Made by a program: the position numbers and the translations under genes. From Symbiodinium sp. CCMP2592 (Eukaryota > Sar > Dinophyceae > Suessiales > Symbiodiniaceae): 64,000 nt of DNA. Position 1 is the first letter of the stretch, and each line of letters begins with the position of its first letter. The notes below the pieces were generated by a model. It made no database searches. It worked only from the letters and a program-made list of their open reading frames with translations, and was not told the origin of the DNA. Of this stretch, positions 44,646 to 54,970 are shown piece after piece. The stretch is from contig CAJNDT010000313.1 of assembly GCA_905221615.1 (NCBI GenBank), positions 1,054,001 to 1,118,000 of the forward strand, given 5' to 3'.

Positions 44646-45111
44646 TGTGCCCAAAGCTCGACCGGTTTTCTCTCAGCGCTCTGCCTTTACGCTGCGGTCT
44701 TCACAGGACGCAAGAGACAGACCTGCTTTTCGTTCTGCTCGTGATTACGCGGTCTTCCCCTCAGAATCCAGGCCTCCTTCGTCGGTCTCCTGCTTTTCAG
44801 GCACTTGGGACGAGGCTGGCAGTTCAGCTTTGAGTGACCCTGTGGTGGACAACCTCCTTCAGGCGGCAGATGCTTTTGCTTCCTCAGCAGAATATGCATT
44901 TCCTCCAGAATCACCCAAAGTACTGCCTGGCAAATTCGCTTTGCCAGCCCGGCCCGCAACCTCGACAGCACGGGTTACTTTGCAGAACGATGTGCATGCA
45001 AAGCTCCGCGCCAAGGGACTTCTTTTGTGGCGCCAGCTGGTTTTGCTCCTTGCACCTTTGAGCTCTGCTTTGCAGGAAATCTTGGAGTCGGCATCCTCAG
45101 AAGCTTTATGA
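44494..45111 (+). pseudogene. N-terminal part of the YR gene, cut by Copia insertion
   Basis: This frame is protein-like from about 44640 (ARPVFSQRSAFTLRSSQD, SSALSDPVVDNLLQAADAF). It runs to GCT TTA at 45103-45108, where the Copia LTR starts with TGA TGA and ends it. The same frame resumes after the Copia 3' duplication at 54971 (CTA GCT CAG CTG). Removing the Copia element and one CTTTA restores one frame across the junction. The ATG at 44494 is likely not the real start. Confidence 0.65.
45104..45108 (+). repeat. 5-bp target site duplication CTTTA, left
   Basis: CTTTA directly precedes the 5' LTR and matches 54966-54970 after the 3' LTR. Five base pairs is the usual duplication size for Copia integrases. 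Confidence 0.93.
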
Positions 45112-45418
45112 TGAAATGTGAGTCTCGCATGTCAGCCACCGGAGAGCAAGGTTACGCAGCAGGCACGGAGTGCCCAAGCAATTGCGTGAAGATCTTGAGT
45201 AAACCTAGCATGTCCCTGCACTTTGTACACTACGGCAGGTAGACTTCTAGGTAGCACTGTGTAAAGATGGTTATGGTAACATGCCATGATCGACAGAAGC
45301 CAGCACATGTGTGTTTGTGGGAAAAACAGCGATCTCAATTCGAAGCCATGGTTTTCTGAACTTCCGACCCCTCCAACGAAGAACGAGGACGATCCTACCC
45401 GGGTCGTGAAGTTTCTCA
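45109..45418 (+). repeat. Copia 5' LTR
   Basis: 310 bp, TGATGAAATG...GTTTCTCA. I see no clear TATA box. A 46-codon open frame starts at 45286 inside it. Confidence 0.96.
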
Positions 45419-45432
45419 GGTTATGAGCGCCC
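45419..45432 (+). promoter_or_regulatory. Candidate tRNA primer binding site
   Basis: GGTTATGAGCGCCC directly follows the LTR and resembles, with differences, the initiator-tRNA-Met complement (TGGTATCAGAGC) used by many Copia elements. The gag ATG at 45423 lies inside it. The match is imperfect. Confidence 0.4.
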
Positions 45433-47558
45433 AATCCACGCAATGTGGTGCGGGTGGAAGCAGAAACTTGGCAGGCGACGTACCTACCTACGGAGGTGTG
45501 GACCTGGGTGGAGCTCGTGGTCCGATGCCCAATGGTGGGGAAGCCATGAATCGAGCTATGGCTGAAGGCCGTGACCTACTGAACGGTGTGGTGAATGGTG
45601 GCCCGTTTGAAGGTCGCCAGGAACCACACGTGCCCGGTAGGTCAGGTCCGACGGGCTCGCTATCAACTACTCGGCCGACGGAAGCGGCCCCCGAACCATC
45701 GTCGTCAGCAAGGCCCCCTGCGGATCCTGTTCCGAGAACTACTGCGAGGAGTGCAGGAAGTTTGGATGGGCTCCTTGGTGTGGAGATGCCTACGATGGTG
45801 GGAACCGGAACTGGCGCGACGGTAGATTCCGGAACGGGCGCGAGCGCACGAAGGTTTCAGGGTGAAACGTTGGGGTTGAGGAGTAGGCCAGGTCAGCAGC
45901 CAGCGACAACTCCAGAGCAACACGACATCAGTACACCCCGACAGGTGCCTTCAACCTCACAACAACAGCCCCAACAGCAGCCACCGCCGCCGCCACCTCC
46001 AACACAGCAGCCAGCAGCACAGCCTCCTCAACGTTTGCAGCAGCAACCAGCGACTACTCAACCTGTTGTTCAGGATGGTTTGCTGGCGGAAGGCAACGTG
46101 GGAGTCAATGCAGGCCCAATTGCCGCGGCAGTGCCTCAGTTGACTGATCAAAGGAATGCCTTGGTTGCAGCACTTCAGGCGAGGGCGGCAAGGATGGTCC
46201 AGGATGGTGTGGGGGACAGTCCTGGAGCTGTGTCAGTGGAGTCGGGAGAGATGGTAGAGCACAACGGGGAGCAGATGGTTTGGTTTGCTCGACTACGGGG
46301 ATTTGTTCAACGAGGCTTGGAGAGAATGAGGCCCCCGGCTGCTTCCCCGAACTCATGGTACTCGCAATCCCCTACCTGGTCTATCGCTACGCCTAACTTC
46401 CCTGTACCGCAAGAACAACAACCTCGTCTCCTGCAAGGACCCTTTGCCCAGCAAGAACAGCAACCTCGACTACTGCAGGGACTTTCTGGAACGCATGAAC
46501 AACAGCCCCGACTACCTGCAGGGATCCCTCGTGAACATCCAGGTGATCAATCATCGACGGGCTCTATCCAACCGGAGGTTGTGCAAGAGGAGGTGAGGAG
46601 GGCGGTGCAGCAGGCTATGCAGCAAAGAGATCATCGTGTCAATGATTTGCAGGCGGAAAATGCGGAGCTTCGACAGCTCCTGGCGTCGATGATGGAAGTG
46701 AACACCGATGCAAGGGGAGTTCAAGGAGGCACAGGACCTATGCCAGGTGAAGGGTCGGGGCTTCAACCAAGAGGCCGGGAAGCCGATCTAGGCACAGGCT
46801 TCGGACCTCCTGAACGAGGTGAACCTCATCGGTCCTCGGACGCAGGTGCCGAACTTCCGCGTGGTCCTCCAGGTCTACCTCTACCAGCTCGAGGGCTCAG
46901 GGGTGATCTAGGTGGACTGCGAGGAGAGCAAGATCGGTGGATCAATGAGCCAGCTGGAAGGCGTCTGAGTGGTGGTGGCCAGAGTGATGCCACAGGAAAG
47001 CCCCAGGGCTACCAGGAACAAGGCGCCAGTCTCGGCGCTCAGGCTGATGGTCACCGACAAGATGATGGGAGGGCCCAGCCGGCCCCAATGGACCTCCTTG
47101 CGGAGGGGATCAAGCAGCTTCAGCAGCTGCAGCTACGACGGGACGGACATGATCCGGAAATCTTGAAGGGAAGCGTGGAGCTCCCCAAGCTCCCGGAGCC
47201 CTACCAGGACCAAAGTGCCATCGCGTTTCTTGAGTGGATCTACGAGGTGGGACAGGTCGTGGGCTCGATCACGGATAAGGCGGCGGGATGGTGGAGTGCG
47301 AACGTGGAGTTAGCGATGGAGGCCTACCACCGATTCCAGGCCGAGGTCCCTCTCAAGAGACTCCATGTGCAAGCCTTGGAGAGCCCGGAGGTAGATCCTG
47401 AGAAGTGGGCAAGATTGGAGCGGAGAGTGATGACTTTGTTATTGTCAGCTATGTCCCCTACGATCAAGGCGGAGATCACGATGCTCCGGATCAACCGTGT
47501 GAAGGATTGCCTCTTCAAGTTGTACACCACCTTCGCTCCATCCTGGAGGGGCGAGTGA
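45423..47558 (+). CDS. gag: Copia Gag polyprotein
   Basis: A 711-codon ORF whose ATG lies only five bases after the 5' LTR. Residues 1-175 are Gly/Ala/Pro-rich. Residues 175-220 are Gln/Pro-rich (poly-Pro and QQPQQQP). Residues 330-375 contain three copies of an EQQPRLLQG-type repeat. Residues about 385-425 form a coiled coil (RRAVQQAMQQRDHRVNDLQ). The C-terminal 160 residues are the likely capsid domain (SAIAFLEWIYEVGQVVGS, KAAGWWSANVELAMEAYHRF, RLERRVMTLLLSAM). It assembles the virus-like particle. The frame stops at 47556-47558 while the capsid fold appears to continue in the +1 frame, so a frameshift is needed to make Gag-Pol. Confidence 0.88.
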   Translation: MSAQSTQCGAGGSRNLAGDVPTYGGVDLGGARGPMPNGGEAMNRAMAEGRDLLNGVVNGGPFEGRQEPHVPGRSGPTGSLSTTRPTEAAPEPSSSARPPADPVPRTTARSAGSLDGLLGVEMPTMVGTGTGATVDSGTGASARRFQGETLGLRSRPGQQPATTPEQHDISTPRQVPSTSQQQPQQQPPPPPPPTQQPAAQPPQRLQQQPATTQPVVQDGLLAEGNVGVNAGPIAAAVPQLTDQRNALVAALQARAARMVQDGVGDSPGAVSVESGEMVEHNGEQMVWFARLRGFVQRGLERMRPPAASPNSWYSQSPTWSIATPNFPVPQEQQPRLLQGPFAQQEQQPRLLQGLSGTHEQQPRLPAGIPREHPGDQSSTGSIQPEVVQEEVRRAVQQAMQQRDHRVNDLQAENAELRQLLASMMEVNTDARGVQGGTGPMPGEGSGLQPRGREADLGTGFGPPERGEPHRSSDAGAELPRGPPGLPLPARGLRGDLGGLRGEQDRWINEPAGRRLSGGGQSDATGKPQGYQEQGASLGAQADGHRQDDGRAQPAPMDLLAEGIKQLQQLQLRRDGHDPEILKGSVELPKLPEPYQDQSAIAFLEWIYEVGQVVGSITDKAAGWWSANVELAMEAYHRFQAEVPLKRLHVQALESPEVDPEKWARLERRVMTLLLSAMSPTIKAEITMLRINRVKDCLFKLYTTFAPSWRGE

Positions 47559-50500
47559 GAGGGCAAGTTTGATCCGGCAGCTTGAGCACATTAGACCCGA
47601 GGGGAACATTGTGGACTTGATCGCCTCACTTCGAAAGTGGAAGAAGCTGACAGGACGGGCGGCTGAGATGGGAGTAGCTCTGCCGGATGGTTCGGTCCTC
47701 CTAATGGCCTTAGAGGGTGCGATCAAGACTGTGGTTGAAGGCAACAAGGATGTGGCGTTCAAGCTGAACATGGCGAAGCAGGAGCTGCGGCTACCCTACC
47801 AGCCCTCCTTGACTGCGGTTCTTACCTATGCGGACCACATCCTCGCAGAGCTCCAGCAAGTGATCCCCTTCAATGCCAAGGAGCAGGGCGCCAAGCTGAA
47901 GGGCATGACTTCGGATCCCGGATCTCCAACATCCTCGGCGTCCTCACCTACCGGAAAGGGCCAGGGGCAAAGGGCACCTTGCAAGTTTTGGCTGTCGCCA
48001 GAAGGATGTCGGCGTGGTGCTGCCTGTAAGTTCAGTCATGTGTTCGCGACCAAGGAGGACAAGAAGGCGAGATGCTGGACGTGTGGTTCTACAATGCACC
48101 GACAAGCTGAATGTCCGACCAAGCAAGGTGGCAAGCGATCACAGAAGGGCGACCCCGAGAAGAACAAGCAGGCCCCATTGGCTTCGAACCCCCAGGTGGC
48201 GTCGCTCACTGCACCCTTGCCGTCTACCGCGGTCCCGGTGACACCGGCAACCACAGCGAACTCAACCTTGGAGCACCCAATGGGCCCGCCTACGGAGAGA
48301 TCGCCTCTGACCTCAGCTACTACCACAGCGGATCCAATGGCTACCTCCAGTGGCTCCTCTTCTGCGGCTTCGACGGTTCTGTTTTCTGAGCAGGCTGCGG
48401 GGGAGGTTCGAGAACTAGCTGAGCAGTTCCTGTCGAAGATCAAGAGGCTGGCTCCGATGCAGGCGCAGACGGACGGAGCTGTGATGAACTTGGAGCTTCT
48501 TCTTCGTTCCCAAGGGCTTGGTGAAAGTCACGGTATGGCCCTACTGGATAGTGGTGCTTCGCATGCCTATCGGGCACCACACTCAAAGGAAGAGGCCTCC
48601 ACGGCCCGCAAGGTCAGAGTGCAGCTCGCAGATGGCAAGACGATCTACCTCCGCCAGAACAAGGGAGGCACTCTCCTTGCGGAGGAGGAACAAGGAGGAG
48701 GGACTATCCTACCACTCGGAAGCCTCGTCAGCTCCCTTGGCTGTGAGCTCAAGTGGAGCAGAAAAAAGGGGCTCCAGGTGCGACACCCGGTCCATGGGAT
48801 TCTGCCCACGAAGCTCGTGGGGGATACGCCTGTGCTCCGTGAAGCCGAAGCACTTCAACTCATTGCGGATTTGGAACAAGTGGAACTGGGAAAGCTTGAG
48901 AAGCAAACGGAAGAAGGAGTGCTGAAAATGATCGCGTCGGAAGAGGAGACGGTCACCACGTGGATAGACTGTGCTGAAGCATTTGTAGAGACCGGCGAAC
49001 GGGCAAGTTTGAGGCGGATGTTGTTGGACCCCGAAGCTCCTCTACAAGCTCCTTTGGAAGAAGACATTGCAGCTCTTCTTGGCGTAGACGACAAGCTTCT
49101 TCTCTCTGATGAGGCAGGTGCTCACTACTTGAAGGCACTGCCCTGGAACCGGACTATGAGAAAGAGGCTTCTCAGGACGAGGTGGATCGTCCACTTGTAC
49201 AATGGAGACGAGCAGGGTGCCGAGCTTTCCCGGGCAGAGTCTGATGATGTCACTGTGGTTCGGATGGACATCCGGAACAACAAGGCCTTCGACCTCCGCA
49301 CCTACACGCCGGCTGTGCGAGCCCTTATGTGGGCAGCGGCAAGGGGACAGATCGAAGGGATACTTGGAGGACCACCTCGAGGGTCAGAGTCCGGCTCAAT
49401 GCTGTTCCGCAGGATGATGCTGCTTTGGCTGGTAGCACATACCGGTGCCACCAGGGAGTGCTTGTGCTCCCCCTTCTTCATGATGGAGGCACCAACTTGG
49501 CACCCGGTGTGGACCAGTTTCACCTGGACCCGTTTCAAGGAGGAGTTTCGCTACCTCCGCTACCACGCCGTTGCCTCCAAGACCGGGGTGTACTTCATGG
49601 CGGGAACGCTTCCGATCTCGGATGGTTTGACTGTGGAGGAGAGTGAGATCCCACGGCTCAACTACCCCTCGCCGGAATCGAGCTGGCCTGTTGAGTTGAA
49701 GACCGGCTTAGCGGAGGCTATGGTACAGTGGAGAAATGGAAGCCGGCGACAACGAGAGGCCATGATGTGCAAGCTCGCCGGACCCAAGGAGATGAATGCG
49801 CGAGACTTGGCCTACTGGGAGAAGCACGTTGCCAATGGACATGTTCCCTATGATCGAAGGTGTCGGACTTGCGTCCGTGCCGCAGCAACTGGCCGTGCAC
49901 ACAGACGGTGCGTTGCCCCTTCGGCCTACACCCTGGGCATTGACATCGCGGGTCCCTTCAGGACAAAGGGAGAAACAGCAGGGGAAAGGGGCCATAGATA
50001 CCTCCTTATTGGTGCTTATTGCCATCCTCGTTTGGAACTGGCAAAGGACGCGGACCTACCGGAGGAAGAGGAGGAGGAACAGATTGAAGCCGAGATCGAC
50101 CCCTTCGAAGAGGACCGGAGAGACGCGGAGCAACTCGATGAGGAGGAGGATGAGGAGCAGAAGGCGATGAACGAACGCTTTAAGGCCCTCTACAAGGATG
50201 TTGGTGACGACATTGACTACCAGACTCTCCCCTTTGTTGTTCCAATGAAGACTCGCACGGCGAAGGAAGTGAGGTCACGGATCCAGCAGATCTACCTACA
50301 GCTACGACAACAAGGGCTTCCGTTGGTGCGCATCCACAGTGACCGTGGGTTGGAGCTAATGGCCCAGGAAACAAGGGAGTGGATGGCGAGTCGGGACATC
50401 CTGGCAACGACAGGAGAGAGTCAGCAACCTCAACAGAACGGCCGGGCAGAGGCGATGGTTAGGGTCATCAAGAGCCGGGTGAAGCTTCTGTTGAGAGCTG

Positions 50501-53500
50501 CCTCCTTGCCTATGTCCTGTTGGCCCCTTGCTGCGGAATTTCATGCCAAACGACAGCGAGACTTGGCCCTGGGTGACCGATCTGATGCGGCATTGCCGTT
50601 TGGAGCGCCAGTCCACGTGAAACATAAGAGGTTCGGGCAGGGTGGTCGATATGATCTTGCTGAACGCTGGCGTTCCGGTACCTTCGTTGGATACTCAGGG
50701 GACGTCCGTGGAGGACGCGTGGTGCGTCACGATGATGGGAGTTACACGACGGCTGTGCACATCAAGCCGTACCTCATCGACTCCGACGACTTGGTGAACC
50801 ATGGGCCCTTTGAGATGGAAGTGGAGGACCCAGTACGTCGAGTTAGGGGAAAAACCTCCTTGGCCCAATTCCTCCTGGATCCTACTACAGAAGTCGACCG
50901 CAAGGCCAAGGACCTCATGGATGCAGAGCTCTACGGGGTGGAGAACATAGTGGAACTGTGGGATGCCCTGAGGATTTACGCGAAGACTACTACACGAACA
51001 ACCCAGGGCGAGGGTCTGCAATGGCTGATGGGCCAGTACACCCATGGAGGACAATGTGGAGTCACTTTGGATTCTGACCGGTTTCCGGTGGTCACTGCCT
51101 ATATGGTCAAGGCCTTCCAGAAGATCACTGGGATCACGGACTTCACGTCCCTCCTCCTGACGGAGAATGTGGGAATGCAGATCCACCGCGACGTTCACAA
51201 CTATGTGGGAAGGAACAATGTGTTACTTCCTCTACTACCATGTGATCAGGGCGGCGGAGTTTGGGTGGAGTCGGATCCGGAGGATTATGATGTCGCCGAT
51301 GAATGGAGGCAGCTCCCGAGAGGGGACTGGCGAAGAGGAGGAGTTCGAGATCTACGACCTGGGCAACCCATCTCGTTCAACCCGCGGAAGTTCCATCAGA
51401 CAGAGGAGTGGAAGGGGAAGAGGTTGGTTCTTACGGCATATACTCCGAGGACATCGAAGATGAAGCAGCCCACCTACGACCAGTTGGTGGAGTATGGTTT
51501 CCAACCACCACCCTTGCCTCCGCGAGTACCTGATCAACTACAACGGGTAGTGCTCAACATGATGAATGTCACGGAGAACTTCCCCGAGTCGGAGGCGATG
51601 ATGTTCCAGATGAGCAGAACCCAGGAGGAGCGCAGTGAGAAGGCCCAGGAGCTAAGCCAGGAATTGCGGCAACTTCAAGAGGATGTACTTGGGCGACTAC
51701 AGGAACGCCGGGAATGGTTGCAAGACTTCTTGGCTGAGGAGGAGATTCTGGCGGAAGAGTTCAATACGGTGGGAGAGGTGATTCGAGAGGAGATAAAAGG
51801 GATCAACGAGGTGGTCAGGGACCTGATCAAGGATGTTGATGATCAAGTGAAGGAAGTGGAGTCCCGTTGCCACAACCTCTACCTCAAGGTGGCCAATGTC
51901 ATGGACGACAAGGAGATTGGGGACATTGAGGAATACCTTGTCAGCCTCAAGAAGGATTTGGACGTGACGCTGGATGTTCCGCTGGAGCAGGTGAAGGCGA
52001 ACATTGGCGACTGGATCGAGCCTATGGACAAGGAGCTCACCAATCTAGGGTCCAAGACGAACGCCATCGAGCCCCGAACTCTCACAGAAGCAAGGAGAAT
52101 GGTGAAGGAAGGATCTCTGATCCTTATTCCTGGCAAAGTCGTGTTTACCGTGAAGCCTCCTGCGCCGGAGACCAAGGCAGAGAAGAAGTCCACTGGTGCA
52201 AGGTGGAAACGCAAAGCGAGGATAGTGATATGTGGCAACCTCGCCAACCAGTCCTTGAGCGCCAGCGAGCTGTACGCAGCGGGCGCCTCCGTTGAGGCGC
52301 TCCGCTTGGCTCTGGCCATCGCGTCGGCACTTGGATGGATCGCTGCTGCTACTGATGTTTCAGCGGCATTCCTTCAGGCGGAGTGGCCGTCGAACAGGCC
52401 AACGTACGGTGTGATACCGCCTAAAATCCTGGTGCAGGCGAACCTCGTTCCGGAGGACATGGTGTTTGTAGTGAGAAGGGCACTCTACGGTTTGAGAGAA
52501 AGCCCGGCACTATGGGCCAACCACCGCACAAAGGTTTTGAAGGAGATCATGGTGCATTGCGCGGAGGGGTATTTGTGGTTGAGGCCGTTGATCACCGATG
52601 GTGAACTTTGGTTGATCCTCTTCATGCCGAACGGAGCGGATCGCCCCCAGCTGAAGGGGCTCCTGGTCACCTATGTGGACGACCTCCTTTACCTGGCGAA
52701 GAAGGCAATCATCTTGTTGCTGCATGGCAAGATCGCCTCGATTTGGCCCTGTTCGGAGTTGGAGTTCTCTGACAAGGGGCTCCGCTACTTGGGTATGGAG
52801 CTTGACCAGGACGGTGATAACTTCACATTGGGACAGGAGGCCTATGTCACCAACTTGGTGAGACTTCATGGTCTGGATCCCCAAGCTGCCGCAGGCCTGC
52901 CTTGCCCGAAGGAGTGGATCCAAGATGATGAGGTTGAGGGTGAGGTGGAGAACTTCAATGCAGAGGAGCTCACCAGGGCTCAGAAGGTCACAGGAGAGTG
53001 TCTTTGGCTAGCCTACCGCACAAGGCCTGACATTTTATTTGTCACGAACTACATGGCGGCAATGACGGCCAAGAGACCGGTGAAGGTCTACCAAGTGGGC
53101 TTGAAGGTGATTGCTTATCTCAACGCGACTGCGACGCTCAAGTTGAAGGTCGAAGCTGCAGCAGAGCCAACGCAGTCCGCAACAGCAGAGCCAACGCAGT
53201 CCACAGCAGAGCCCACGCAGTCCACAGCAGAGCCCACGCAGTCCACAGCAGAGCAACATGAGGCAGGTTTCCGTGTAGGGTTGTCGGGATTCAGCGATGC
53301 GTCGTTTGCTCCGTATGGTGGCAAGAGCTTTGGCTGTAGCATGGTTATGGTGGGTCGTACACCTGTTTCTTGGAAGGCTGGCAAGCAGAGCATGGTGGCT
53401 ATGTCAGTTTGTGAAGCAGAGCTGATGGAGGGATCCACGTGTGCCTTGCTGTTGGAATCCACTCAGGCAATGTTGAAGGAGATTTTACCGCAGGAGGAAC

Positions 53501-54597
53501 CGCCGAGCCTGTTCATCGACAACATGGCGGCCCACAACATCCTGAATGGTTCATCTGGAAGCTGGAGGACGAGACATTTACGCATCAGACATTCTTATGT
53601 GTTGGACCAGGTGATGAATGGAAGCCTACGAGTGGTCCACCTTCCAGGGGAGGACCAGCCTGCGGACCTACCTACCAAGTTGCACAGCCGTGCCCGACTG
53701 ATGCACTTGTTGGGTGTATGGAATATGGTTGGCCTGCCGGAGTTGAATGGAGCAAAGACAATGAAGTTCATGAAGCTGGGATGCTTGTTCCTGCTTATGC
53801 TGGCGGTGCAATCGTTGGCTGTGTCAGCCCAGAAGGAGCCTTTGCAGATGACTGGGTCAGGAGAGTTGCTGATGATGTTGCTTCTGACGTGTATTTCTGC
53901 TGTAGCTGTCTGGGAGGCGACGAAGTTGCTCTACCGCTATGCAGTGCATCATGTGTTTGGCACCAAGCGATCAAGGAGGATCAACAAGTTGAGGGAGTTG
54001 GCTAAGGCAGCAGCGGAGGCGGAGATCGAGAAGTGGGTGGAGCAAGACGAGCCTACATCCAGTGAGAGCGTGACACGCTCTCTACGACAAGTTCTCCGAG
54101 AAGAACGCGAGAGCCAGGCGCACACGCCCAGGCCCTCGCCTAGGCCTCTGGCTCCAATGAACATCGAAGACACCCGTGAAAGTGTTTTTGGAGGCCAGAG
54201 ACCAAGGACCCCGCCGTTGCCACGACCGTCGACTCCACCACCATCTAGACGTATGTCTACGCCGACGACCCCGGACTCCGCGGATGGTACAGGGCAATTT
54301 GAGCGTGATCGGGTTTGTCGAGATGTTCTAGGCCTACTTACAGTGAAGAACCTCAAGTCGGGCCTTGAGAACGAGGGCTTACCTGTCTCAGGTCTCAAGG
54401 AGGACCTGGTACGACGCCTTGCCATGACGATGGGTGATGAGACACCATCTTCGATGAGACCAACAACACGACAGTTGAAGTACATTTTGTACGTGTGGCG
54501 CCACCGTAGCCTCTCGGGGCGGACTGAGCTCTCTTGGGCAACCGTTTCCTCGAAGATTGCGACTTCGGAATGGTTGGCTCAATGGAAGGATGCCTGA
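47503..54597 (+). CDS. pol: Copia Gag-Pol continuation with extra domains
   Basis: Open from 47503; residue numbers count from codon 47569 (2342 aa). The end of the capsid region (1-100) precedes a CCCH zinc finger (138-157) and a CCHC knuckle (169-182). An Asp protease follows (LLDSGASH, Asp327). The HHCC and DDE integrase has Asp792, Asp925 and Glu961 (35 residues between the last two), with a Glu/Asp-rich insertion at about 823-866. A 2OG-Fe(II)-oxygenase-like module lies at about 1130-1295 (His1206, Asp1208, His1276, Arg1285), then a coiled coil (1353-1446). RT has Asp1596 and YVDD at 1702-1705. RNase H has Asp1910, Glu1949, Asp1984 and a late Asp2033. A C-terminal extension has two hydrophobic segments (about 2063-2083 and 2098-2118) and a SAP-like motif (2256-2290). 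No stop interrupts it. The oxygenase-like and C-terminal modules are not part of the standard Copia plan. Confidence 0.95.
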   Translation, partial: RIASSSCTPPSLHPGGASERASLIRQLEHIRPEGNIVDLIASLRKWKKLTGRAAEMGVALPDGSVLLMALEGAIKTVVEGNKDVAFKLNMAKQELRLPYQPSLTAVLTYADHILAELQQVIPFNAKEQGAKLKGMTSDPGSPTSSASSPTGKGQGQRAPCKFWLSPEGCRRGAACKFSHVFATKEDKKARCWTCGSTMHRQAECPTKQGGKRSQKGDPEKNKQAPLASNPQVASLTAPLPSTAVPVTPATTANSTLEHPMGPPTERSPLTSATTTADPMATSSGSSSAASTVLFSEQAAGEVRELAEQFLSKIKRLAPMQAQTDGAVMNLELLLRSQGLGESHGMALLDSGASHAYRAPHSKEEASTARKVRVQLADGKTIYLRQNKGGTLLAEEEQGGGTILPLGSLVSSLGCELKWSRKKGLQVRHPVHGILPTKLVGDTPVLREAEALQLIADLEQVELGKLEKQTEEGVLKMIASEEETVTTWIDCAEAFVETGERASLRRMLLDPEAPLQAPLEEDIAALLGVDDKLLLSDEAGAHYLKALPWNRTMRKRLLRTRWIVHLYNGDEQGAELSRAESDDVTVVRMDIRNNKAFDLRTYTPAVRALMWAAARGQIEGILGGPPRGSESGSMLFRRMMLLWLVAHTGATRECLCSPFFMMEAPTWHPVWTSFTWTRFKEEFRYLRYHAVASKTGVYFMAGTLPISDGLTVEESEIPRLNYPSPESSWPVELKTGLAEAMVQWRNGSRRQREAMMCKLAGPKEMNARDLAYWEKHVANGHVPYDRRCRTCVRAAATGRAHRRCVAPSAYTLGIDIAGPFRTKGETAGERGHRYLLIGAYCHPRLELAKDADLPEEEEEEQIEAEIDPFEEDRRDAEQLDEEEDEEQKAMNERFKALYKDVGDDIDYQTLPFVVPMKTRTAKEVRSRIQQIYLQLRQQGLPLVRIHSDRGLELMAQETREWMASRDILATTGESQQPQQNGRAEAMVRVIKSRVKLLLRAASLPMSCWPLAAEFHAKRQRDLALGDRSDAALPFGAPVHVKHKRFGQGGRYDLAERWRSGTFVGYSGDVRGGRVVRHDDGSYTTAVHIKPYLIDSDDLVNHGPFEMEVEDPVRRVRGKTSLAQFLLDPTTEVDRKAKDLMDAELYGVENIVELWDALRIYAKTTTRTTQGEGLQWLMGQYTHGGQCGVTLDSDRFPVVTAYMVKAFQKITGITDFTSLLLTENVGMQIHRDVHNYVGRNNVLLPLLPCDQGGGVWVESDPEDYDVADEWRQLPRGDWRRGGVRDLRPGQPISFNPRKFHQTEEWKGKRLVLTAYTPRTSKMKQPTYDQLVEYGFQPPPLPPRVPDQLQRVVLNMMNVTENFPESEAMMFQMSRTQEERSEKAQELSQELRQLQEDVLGRLQERREWLQDFLAEEEILAEEFNTVGEVIREEIKGINEVVRDLIKDVDDQVKEVESRCHNLYLKVANVMDDKEIGDIEEYLVSLKKDLDVTLDVPLEQVKANIGDWIEPMDKELTNLGSKTNAIEPRTLTEARRMVKEGSLILIPGKVVFTVKPPAPETKAEKKSTGARWKRKARIVICGNLANQSLSASELYAAGASVEALRLALAIASALGWIAAATDVSAAFLQAEWPSNRPTYGVIPPKILVQANLVPEDMVFVVRRALYGLRESPALWANHRTKVLKEIMVHCAEGYLWLRPLITDGELWLILFMPNGADRPQLKGLLVTYVDDLLYLAKKAIILLLHGKIASIWPCSELEFSDKGLRYLGMELDQDGDNFTLGQEAYVTNLVRLHGLDPQAAAGLPCPKEWIQDDEVEGEVENFNAEELTRAQKVTGECLWLAYRTRPDILFVTNYMAAMTAKRPVKVYQVGLKVIAYLNATATLKLKVEAAAEPTQSATAEPTQSTAEPTQSTAEPTQSTAEQHEAGFRVGLSGFSDASFAPYGGKSFGCSMVMVGRTPVSWKAGKQSMVAMSVCEAELMEGSTCALLLESTQAMLKEILPQEEPPSLFIDNMAAHNILNGSSGSWRTRHLRIRHSYVLDQVMNGSLRVVHLPGEDQPADLPTKLHSRARLMHLLGVWNMVGLPELNGAKTMKFMKLGCLFLLMLAVQSLAVSAQKEPLQMTGSGELLMMLLLTCISAVAVWEATKLLYRYAVHHVFGTKRSRRINKLRELAKAAAEAEIEKWVEQDEPTSSESVTRSLRQVLREERESQAHTPRPSPRPLAPMNIEDTRESVFGGQRPRTPPLPRPSTPPPSRRMSTPTTPDSADGTGQFERDRVCRDVLGLLTVKNLKSGLENEGLPVSGLKEDLVRRLAMTMGDETPSSMRPTTRQLKYILYVWRHRSLSGRTELSWATVSSKIATSEWLAQWKDA
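50956..51453 (+). other. 2OG-Fe(II)-oxygenase-like module inside Copia pol
   Basis: Between integrase and RT the polyprotein reads LLTENVGMQIHRDVHNYV, then NVLLPLLPCDQGGGVWVE, then PISFNPRKFHQTEEWKGKR. This gives an HxD (His1206, Asp1208), a Gly-rich GGxxWVE strand, and a distal His1276 followed by Arg1285, in the order and rough spacing of the double-stranded beta-helix dioxygenases (HxD, 67 residues, H, 8 residues, R). All expected metal and 2-oxoglutarate ligands are present, so an active enzyme is possible. Fold and activity are inferred from the motif pattern only. Confidence 0.68.
53159..53252 (+). repeat. 21-bp coding minisatellite between RT and RNase H
   Basis: Four to five in-frame copies of a 21-bp unit encoding AEPTQST. 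It forms a flexible linker and could vary in copy number between element copies. Confidence 0.9.
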
Positions 54598-54655: not shown

Positions 54656-54965
54656 TGATGAAATGTGAGTCTCGCATGTCAGCCACCGGAGAGCAAGGTT
54701 ACGCAGCAGGCACGGAGTGCCCAAGCAATTGCGTGAAGATCTTGAGTAAACCTAGCATGTCCCTGCACTTTGTACACTACGGCAGGTAGACTTCTAGGTA
54801 GCACTGTGTAAAGATGGTTATGGTAACATGCCATGATCGACAGAAGCCAGCACATGTGTGTTTGTGGGAAAAACAGCGATCTCAATTCGAAGCCATGGTT
54901 TTCTGAACTTCCGACCCCTCCAACGAAGAACGAGGACGATCCTACCCGGGTCGTGAAGTTTCTCA
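54656..54965 (+). repeat. Copia 3' LTR
   Basis: 310 bp, apparently identical to the 5' LTR. From 54833 an open frame runs out of the LTR into the YR gene. Confidence 0.96.
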
Positions 54966-54970
54966 CTTTA
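54966..54970 (+). repeat. 5-bp target site duplication CTTTA, right
   Basis: Matches 45104-45108. Confidence 0.93.

Follow-up and report, generated by a model that had tools for sequence, protein, structure and literature searches.

The window analyzed here is a 64,000-nucleotide stretch of the Symbiodinium sp. CCMP2592 genome (contig CAJNDT010000313.1, forward-strand positions 1,054,001 to 1,118,000), and the coordinates below refer to it. It contains an intact Copia retrotransposon with 310 nt long terminal repeats (LTRs) that are 100% identical, have TG...CA ends, and are bordered on both sides by CTTTA, a 5-bp target-site duplication. Based on alignment and a predicted fold, the pol frame encodes at 50956-51453 a 2-oxoglutarate and Fe(II)-dependent (2OG-Fe(II)) oxygenase domain with a HxDxxN...H...R site, located in frame between the integrase and the reverse transcriptase (RT). 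The LTRs, the target-site duplication, an integrase that precedes RT, and an RVT_2 match above the Pfam cut-off place the element in Ty1/Copia; the integrase match is weak (E 0.039). The element is laid out as follows.

45104..45108, no strand: target-site duplication, left copy (CTTTA)
45109..45418, + strand: 5' LTR, 310 nt, same as the 3' LTR
45423..47558, + strand: gag-like open reading frame (ORF), 711 aa, in a frame that differs from pol ("gag" is named by position only)
47569..54597, + strand: Copia pol frame, 2342 codons without a stop; stop-free from 47503
47977..48039, + strand: CCCH zinc finger, pol residues 137-157 (Pfam E 2.3e-4, under the cut-off)
48073..48117, + strand: CCHC zinc knuckle, pol residues 169-183 (Pfam E 0.0026, under the cut-off)
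50233..50430, + strand: integrase core, pol residues 889-954 (weak rve match, E 0.039)
50866..51498, + strand: modelled stretch, residues 1100-1310, two N-terminal helices and a double-stranded beta-helix (pLDDT 91.4, pTM 0.87)
50956..51453, + strand: predicted 2OG-Fe(II) oxygenase domain, pol residues 1130-1295 (alignment, predicted fold)
51184..51201, + strand: HxDxxN motif with H1206 and D1208 (Fe ligands by homology) and N1211
51253..51264, + strand: conserved G1229 and W1232 in the GGGVW strand
51394..51423, + strand: second His ligand H1276 and putative 2OG-binding R1285 (roles by superfamily homology)
51538..51981, + strand: charged spacer between oxygenase and RT, probably coiled-coil, residues 1324-1471 (weak Prominin/OmpH matches only)
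52183..52875, + strand: reverse transcriptase RVT_2, residues 1539-1769 (E 2.1e-13; 50.9 bits, cut-off 31.6)
53767..53931, + strand: two hydrophobic membrane-like segments, residues 2067-2088 and 2096-2121
54331..54420, + strand: SAP-like DNA-binding motif, residues 2255-2284 (E 3.7e-4, under the Pfam cut-off)
54656..54965, + strand: 3' LTR
54966..54970, no strand: target-site duplication, right copy (CTTTA)

A first-pass annotation of this DNA had named the segments IHRD, GGGVWVE, and FHQTEEWKGKR, and translation finds them where it placed them, with codons for H1206 at 51184-51186, D1208 at 51190-51192, H1276 at 51394-51396, and R1285 at 51421-51423. Its placement of the module between integrase and RT, in a stop-free frame of 2342 codons, also holds (weak rve match at residues 889-954, RVT_2 at 1539-1769). 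The HxD...H...R/K ligand set that it cited is not telling by itself: the pattern H.D-x(50-90)-H-x(8-16)-[RK] occurs in 1198 of 2000 shuffles of pol and twice in the real pol, and we rejected the bare motif as evidence because it is at chance level. The signals above chance are conservation across diverged copies and the fold. The structure predicted for residues 1100-1310, a check that the annotation had proposed, is a confident double-stranded beta-helix (pLDDT 91.4, pTM 0.87), and a second structure model is likewise a double-stranded beta-helix oxygenase. Among the PDB structure matches listed, 50 of 50 are 2OG-Fe(II) oxygenases. Of the features that define the 2OG-Fe(II) superfamily, the fold (here predicted), the HxD...H triad, and a basic residue after the second His are present.

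The 1.1 Gb genome was searched for the oxygenase domain and the best 150 of 4360 first-look candidates were scored; among these, the matched part is stop-free in all but 3 rows. Relatives in public records are filed under several Symbiodinium species or strain names. A chance motif or an assembly artefact would fit the chance-level frequency of the bare motif, but this explanation is refuted by the genome copies, the invariant columns described next, and the structure model. The spread of names among the relatives also speaks against it, and its probability is negligible.

We aligned 106 rows, made up of the query and 105 domain copies (90 loci, the window copy included, plus 15 public proteins that in part probably duplicate the loci). 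H1206 and N1211 are present in 106/106 rows, D1208 in 105/106 (one Gly), H1276 in 102/106 (one Tyr, three gaps), and R1285 in 103/106 (one Cys, two gaps). Across 37 diverse copies, which are 27-39% identical to the query except for two at 68-69%, ten domain columns are invariant (G26, G31, H77, D79, N82, G100, W103, G128, H147, and R156). This survey of the His/Asp/His/Arg positions in related elements had also been proposed beforehand; the positions are kept across diverged copies and, with the predicted fold, they bear out the oxygenase reading. The ten columns include the putative ligands of the metal and of 2OG, which argues against the possibility that the fold is kept as a non-catalytic structural spacer or binding module of Pol, a role that we consider very improbable.

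Some exceptions would suit such a structural role. The public set comprises 69 proteins, 15 of which are also in the first alignment and some of which come from the same genome; in rows without gaps the first His is kept in 61/65, the Asp in 66/66, the Asn in 63/65, the second His in 57/59, and the Arg in 53/61. All eight Arg exceptions fall within one branch of short proteins (P0025-P0031 and P0033), in which the Arg corresponding to R1285 has been lost. Six further public rows (P0023, P0024, P0032, P0036, P0054, and P0055) depart at a His or Asn. The branch consists of short predicted proteins of 173-245 aa that retain HRDxxN and the second His and have Met, Val, or Ile at the position of the 2OG-binding Arg; P0031 represents 45 sequences.

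Purifying selection acts on the oxygenase with roughly the strength seen for RT. In the 54 loci that have all of integrase, oxygenase, and RT, the median ratios of nonsynonymous to synonymous substitution (dN/dS) in five dS bins are 0.046, 0.059, 0.044, 0.103, and 0.071 for the oxygenase and 0.000, 0.047, 0.046, 0.032, and 0.096 for RT; the bins take in 49 of 1431 pairs, and pairs share loci. A stop is present in 4 of 69 oxygenase copies. The first-pass annotation had claimed that function is under selection and had suggested this test, and on dN/dS (0.04-0.10 for the oxygenase, like RT) the claim stands. We reject the ground that it gave, the identical LTRs, since LTR identity indicates only a recent insertion.

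Oxygenase distances correlate with those of RT (Mantel r 0.86) and integrase (0.79) among the 45 copies left once near-identical ones were removed, with 0/999 permutations as high; the integrase-RT correlation in this set is 0.95. An integrase lies upstream and RT downstream of the oxygenase in 65 of 70 loci, and among the 70 there are four without one of these two in the stretch examined and one, L070, without both. Because oxygenase distances track those of RT, and integrase and RT flank the domain in most loci, the domain was an early capture in this Copia lineage and has descended together with integrase and RT.

The genome also contains numerous Copia copies with RVT_2 scores of 96-124 bits, far above the 50.9 bits of the window element. 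By eye, the best 150 of 5766 RVT_2 candidates and the best 150 of 4360 oxygenase places have none in common within 6 kb. As each list holds the best 150, this only shows that the nearest relatives of the element lie outside the top-scoring RVT_2 copies. Those copies may have a more diverged oxygenase domain or none.

Elsewhere in the element, no Pfam family matches the gag-like ORF (45423..47558) at E<=0.01. This ORF overlaps the stop-free pol frame by 56 nt (47503-47558) in a different frame, which suggests a frameshift between the gag-like ORF and pol. In eight relatives checked for the membrane-like segments at the pol C-terminus, these are present in P0002, P0003, P0006, and P0013 and absent in P0005, P0046, P0055, and P0057.

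Judged by its alignment and predicted structure, the oxygenase domain represents a new family of the 2OG-Fe(II) oxygenase superfamily, within a retroelement. Most members have no Pfam family above the cut-off, and this may be the reason that the domain escaped notice. At E<=1 the 37 diverse copies match 15 Pfam families, including Tet_JBP (9 members, best E 8.3e-4) and 2OG-FeII_Oxy_3 (2 members); AlkB (PF13532) is not among the 15. A PDB profile search places TET2 first, aligned over HRDxHN (E 0.17), and the Tet_JBP model gives 61 matches at E<=0.1 over the genome. Profile-profile comparison, as called for by the first-pass annotation, was carried out with hhalign against sets of 11-25 phage TET/JBP-type, 20 AlkB, 18 AspH, and 25 Oxy_3 proteins; phages were used because 299 sampled bacterial genomes gave no Tet_JBP match, the controls being silent too. 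The Copia profile gave TET 89%, Oxy_3 84%, AspH 61%, and AlkB 3% in the first run (reversed controls at most 0.8%), and TET 74-86%, Oxy_3 83-89%, AspH 65-68%, and AlkB 3-4% with other alignments and settings. With DIRS-like and short-protein members added, the values are TET 78-87%, Oxy_3 74-80%, and AspH 9-32%, with TET mostly ahead, though not in all settings. Since the order changes with alignment and settings, TET/JBP and P4H-like families are tied and AlkB is well behind.

An AlkB-type demethylase of RNA or methylated bases, as in an orchid Gypsy lineage, is improbable, given AlkB profile probabilities of only 1.5-4.3% overall and the absence of this Pfam family from the 15 matched; structural similarity to AlkB is present among the PDB matches. 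In phages, tblastn with the oxygenase domain gave matches at E 4-10 only, and PHROGs and NCBIfam each returned two isolated, unrelated names. In Mycobacterium phage Zemanar, a match to ADDT (amino acid:DNA transferase; L254:1852-2823, E 5e-9) adjoins a TET-like gene.

The domain also occurs outside Copia. The ten best Tet_JBP genome matches (L091-L100, at least 90% alike) are in non-Copia loci. L101, examined in full, contains a tyrosine-recombinase-like ORF (recombinase by eye), a gag-like ORF, and a 1283-aa ORF (L101:2911-6762) that encodes, in order, the oxygenase, a C5-methyltransferase-like domain, RT, and RNase H (the last by eye), an order that we take to be DIRS-like. In the DIRS ORF that was scanned, Tet_JBP matches the domain and RVT_1 matches elsewhere, with nothing else at E<=1. 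A methyltransferase-like stretch follows the oxygenase in 10/10 of the loci L091-L100, and motifs resembling C5-methyltransferase motifs I, IV, and VI can be picked out by eye (VFSG...APPCGTAS...ENP). L070 (1-3423) encodes in one frame an RNase H-like domain, the oxygenase, another methyltransferase-like domain (GPVCSSFS...ENPHGS), and a recombinase-like domain; the methyltransferase-like versions of L091-L100 and L070 resemble each other (93.6%). At E<=1 Pfam does not recognize the methyltransferase-like domain of the DIRS elements, and comparison with a profile built from 11 bacterial C5-methyltransferases yields only 1-8% (reversed control at most 1.1%), so the label rests on the motifs read by eye. 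In profile-profile comparison, the Copia oxygenase domain is homologous to the DIRS domains (99.9%, E 2e-31) and to the short proteins (99.9%, E 6e-32).

We predict that the domain probably modifies DNA, RNA, or protein chemically. By a narrow balance of probability, we favor an active Pol-borne oxygenase in Copia whose substrate is most likely a nucleic-acid base, modified in a TET/JBP-type reaction. A base is favored because of the resemblance to TET/JBP, the methyltransferase-like company in the DIRS-like elements, and the biology of the host. The dinoflagellate enzyme for hydroxymethyluracil is reportedly a putative TET/JBP homologue. In an excerpt of PMC11071213, 12-68% of thymine in dinoflagellates is replaced by 5-hydroxymethyluracil, which is enriched on repeats, and its primary role may be to modulate repeat activity. 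A base-contact role for the Asn after HxD is taken from a passage on CcTET (PMC12730594).

Several observations weigh against a TET/JBP-type assignment. The window domain has no Pfam family at E<=10, and none of the 61 Tet_JBP genome matches is above the cut-off of 34.9 bits (the best relatives score 25.7-29.6 bits); in a control with 14 genomes, E. coli also matches Tet_JBP at E<=0.1, below the cut-off. Asp_Arg_Hydrox (PF05118) matches 8 of the 37 members and gives the lowest single E-value (1e-4); P0045, a public relative, exceeds the cut-off of that family (27.8 versus 22.6 bits), whereas the window domain itself does not match it. The Copia profile scores 74-89% with TET/JBP and 83-89% with Oxy_3, the leader depending on settings, and 61-68% with AspH. 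On their own, the DIRS set gives 0.1-0.7% against the four families and the short-protein set 6.5% with TET. The PDB structure matches span Z-scores of only 11.7 to 10.2 over the 50 listed, and TET ranks third with the second structure model. The Pfam cut-off is a poor guide here, since gp2 of phage Nigel, presumably a TET/JBP protein (two of its relatives are annotated as Tet-like J-binding protein), scores no better on Tet_JBP (26.5 bits) than the DIRS copy (25.7 bits).

P4H-like and AspH-like hydroxylases act on proteins. A protein hydroxylase of this kind (P4H-like or aspartyl/asparaginyl-like), acting on a host or element protein such as a chromatin protein that the integration complex encounters, is possible, if rather unlikely. 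Against it are the wider-family profile scores, in which TET is mostly ahead of Oxy_3 and AspH, the domain of the DIRS ORF, which matches Tet_JBP alone at E<=1, and the methyltransferase-like domain that adjoins the DIRS oxygenase.

As a TET/JBP-type enzyme, the oxygenase would accompany the other Pol products into the virus-like particle and the integration complex. With Fe(II), O2, and 2OG it would add a hydroxyl group to a carbon, most likely that of a methyl group, on a base in the cDNA of the element, its RNA, or the chromatin of the target site, for example converting thymine to 5-hydroxymethyluracil or oxidizing 5-methylcytosine. A host mark that silences repeats could be adjusted in this way, with new copies receiving a host-like mark or a repressive mark being altered or oxidized further. 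We also offer, tentatively and as an unlikely proposal, that the Copia and DIRS-like elements of dinoflagellates jointly hold a very large pool, kept by selection, of a new family of TET/JBP-like pyrimidine dioxygenases, with which they write or rewrite 5-hydroxymethyluracil or oxidized 5-methylcytosine on their own DNA. This family would share an origin with the host hydroxymethyluracil system, one of the two having arisen by capture from the other.

A catalytic domain kept so well in an abundant class of retroelements should serve the life cycle of the element. Dinoflagellates, with their heavily modified DNA, may control jumping genes through such marks, and if the element-borne oxygenases are of the same kind as that of the host, an arms race or self-marking is directly testable.

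Among the best-matching open-licence literature, preprints excluded, no title reports an oxygenase in dinoflagellate Copia. Heat-activated Copia elements are known from S. microadriaticum (cited in PMC11453091), and the excerpt of PMC6680887 names AlkB homologues in dinoflagellates and contains neither TET nor JBP. The orchid Ty3/Gypsy elements with AlkB (PMC9289625) are, like the window element, LTR retrotransposons with a 2OG dioxygenase, but theirs is of AlkB type, is encoded by an additional ORF in Gypsy, is called recent, and is described for Phalaenopsis only. In that excerpt, a screen of 121 angiosperm genomes places every one of the extra domains in Gypsy-type elements, and the fixation of such domains in LTR elements is considered rare. 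Symbiodinium retrotransposons with a DNA methyltransferase (DNMT; PMC5890265) are likewise dinoflagellate retroelements with a DNA-modification domain, although the domain is a methyltransferase and lies in DIRS and LINE elements; according to the excerpt, the abundant Copia elements have no DNMT. DNMT3 members are placed in Copia and DIRS for streptophytes and dinoflagellates taken together (PMC12344493). The fungal TET/JBP carriers (PMC12730594) are also mobile elements with such a dioxygenase, but they are DNA transposons and Helitrons.

Among protein families, 2OG-FeII_Oxy_3/P4H-like and AspH-like enzymes share the fold and, in alignment, the C-terminal half with the Copia domain, and the Oxy_3 profile is level with TET; when the wider family is brought in, they mostly fall behind TET. 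TET/JBP (PF12851, including the mycobacteriophage gp2-type) differs in the distance between His and Arg, which is 9 in the Copia domain and 14-16 in the phage set, and in that the Copia-borne core is about 165 aa and lies inside Pol; no match in the genome reaches the Pfam cut-off. TET/JBP resembles the Copia domain in the fold, HxDxxN, the GG strand, the second His, and the Arg, and its Pfam model matches 9 of the 37 members as well as the DIRS ORF.
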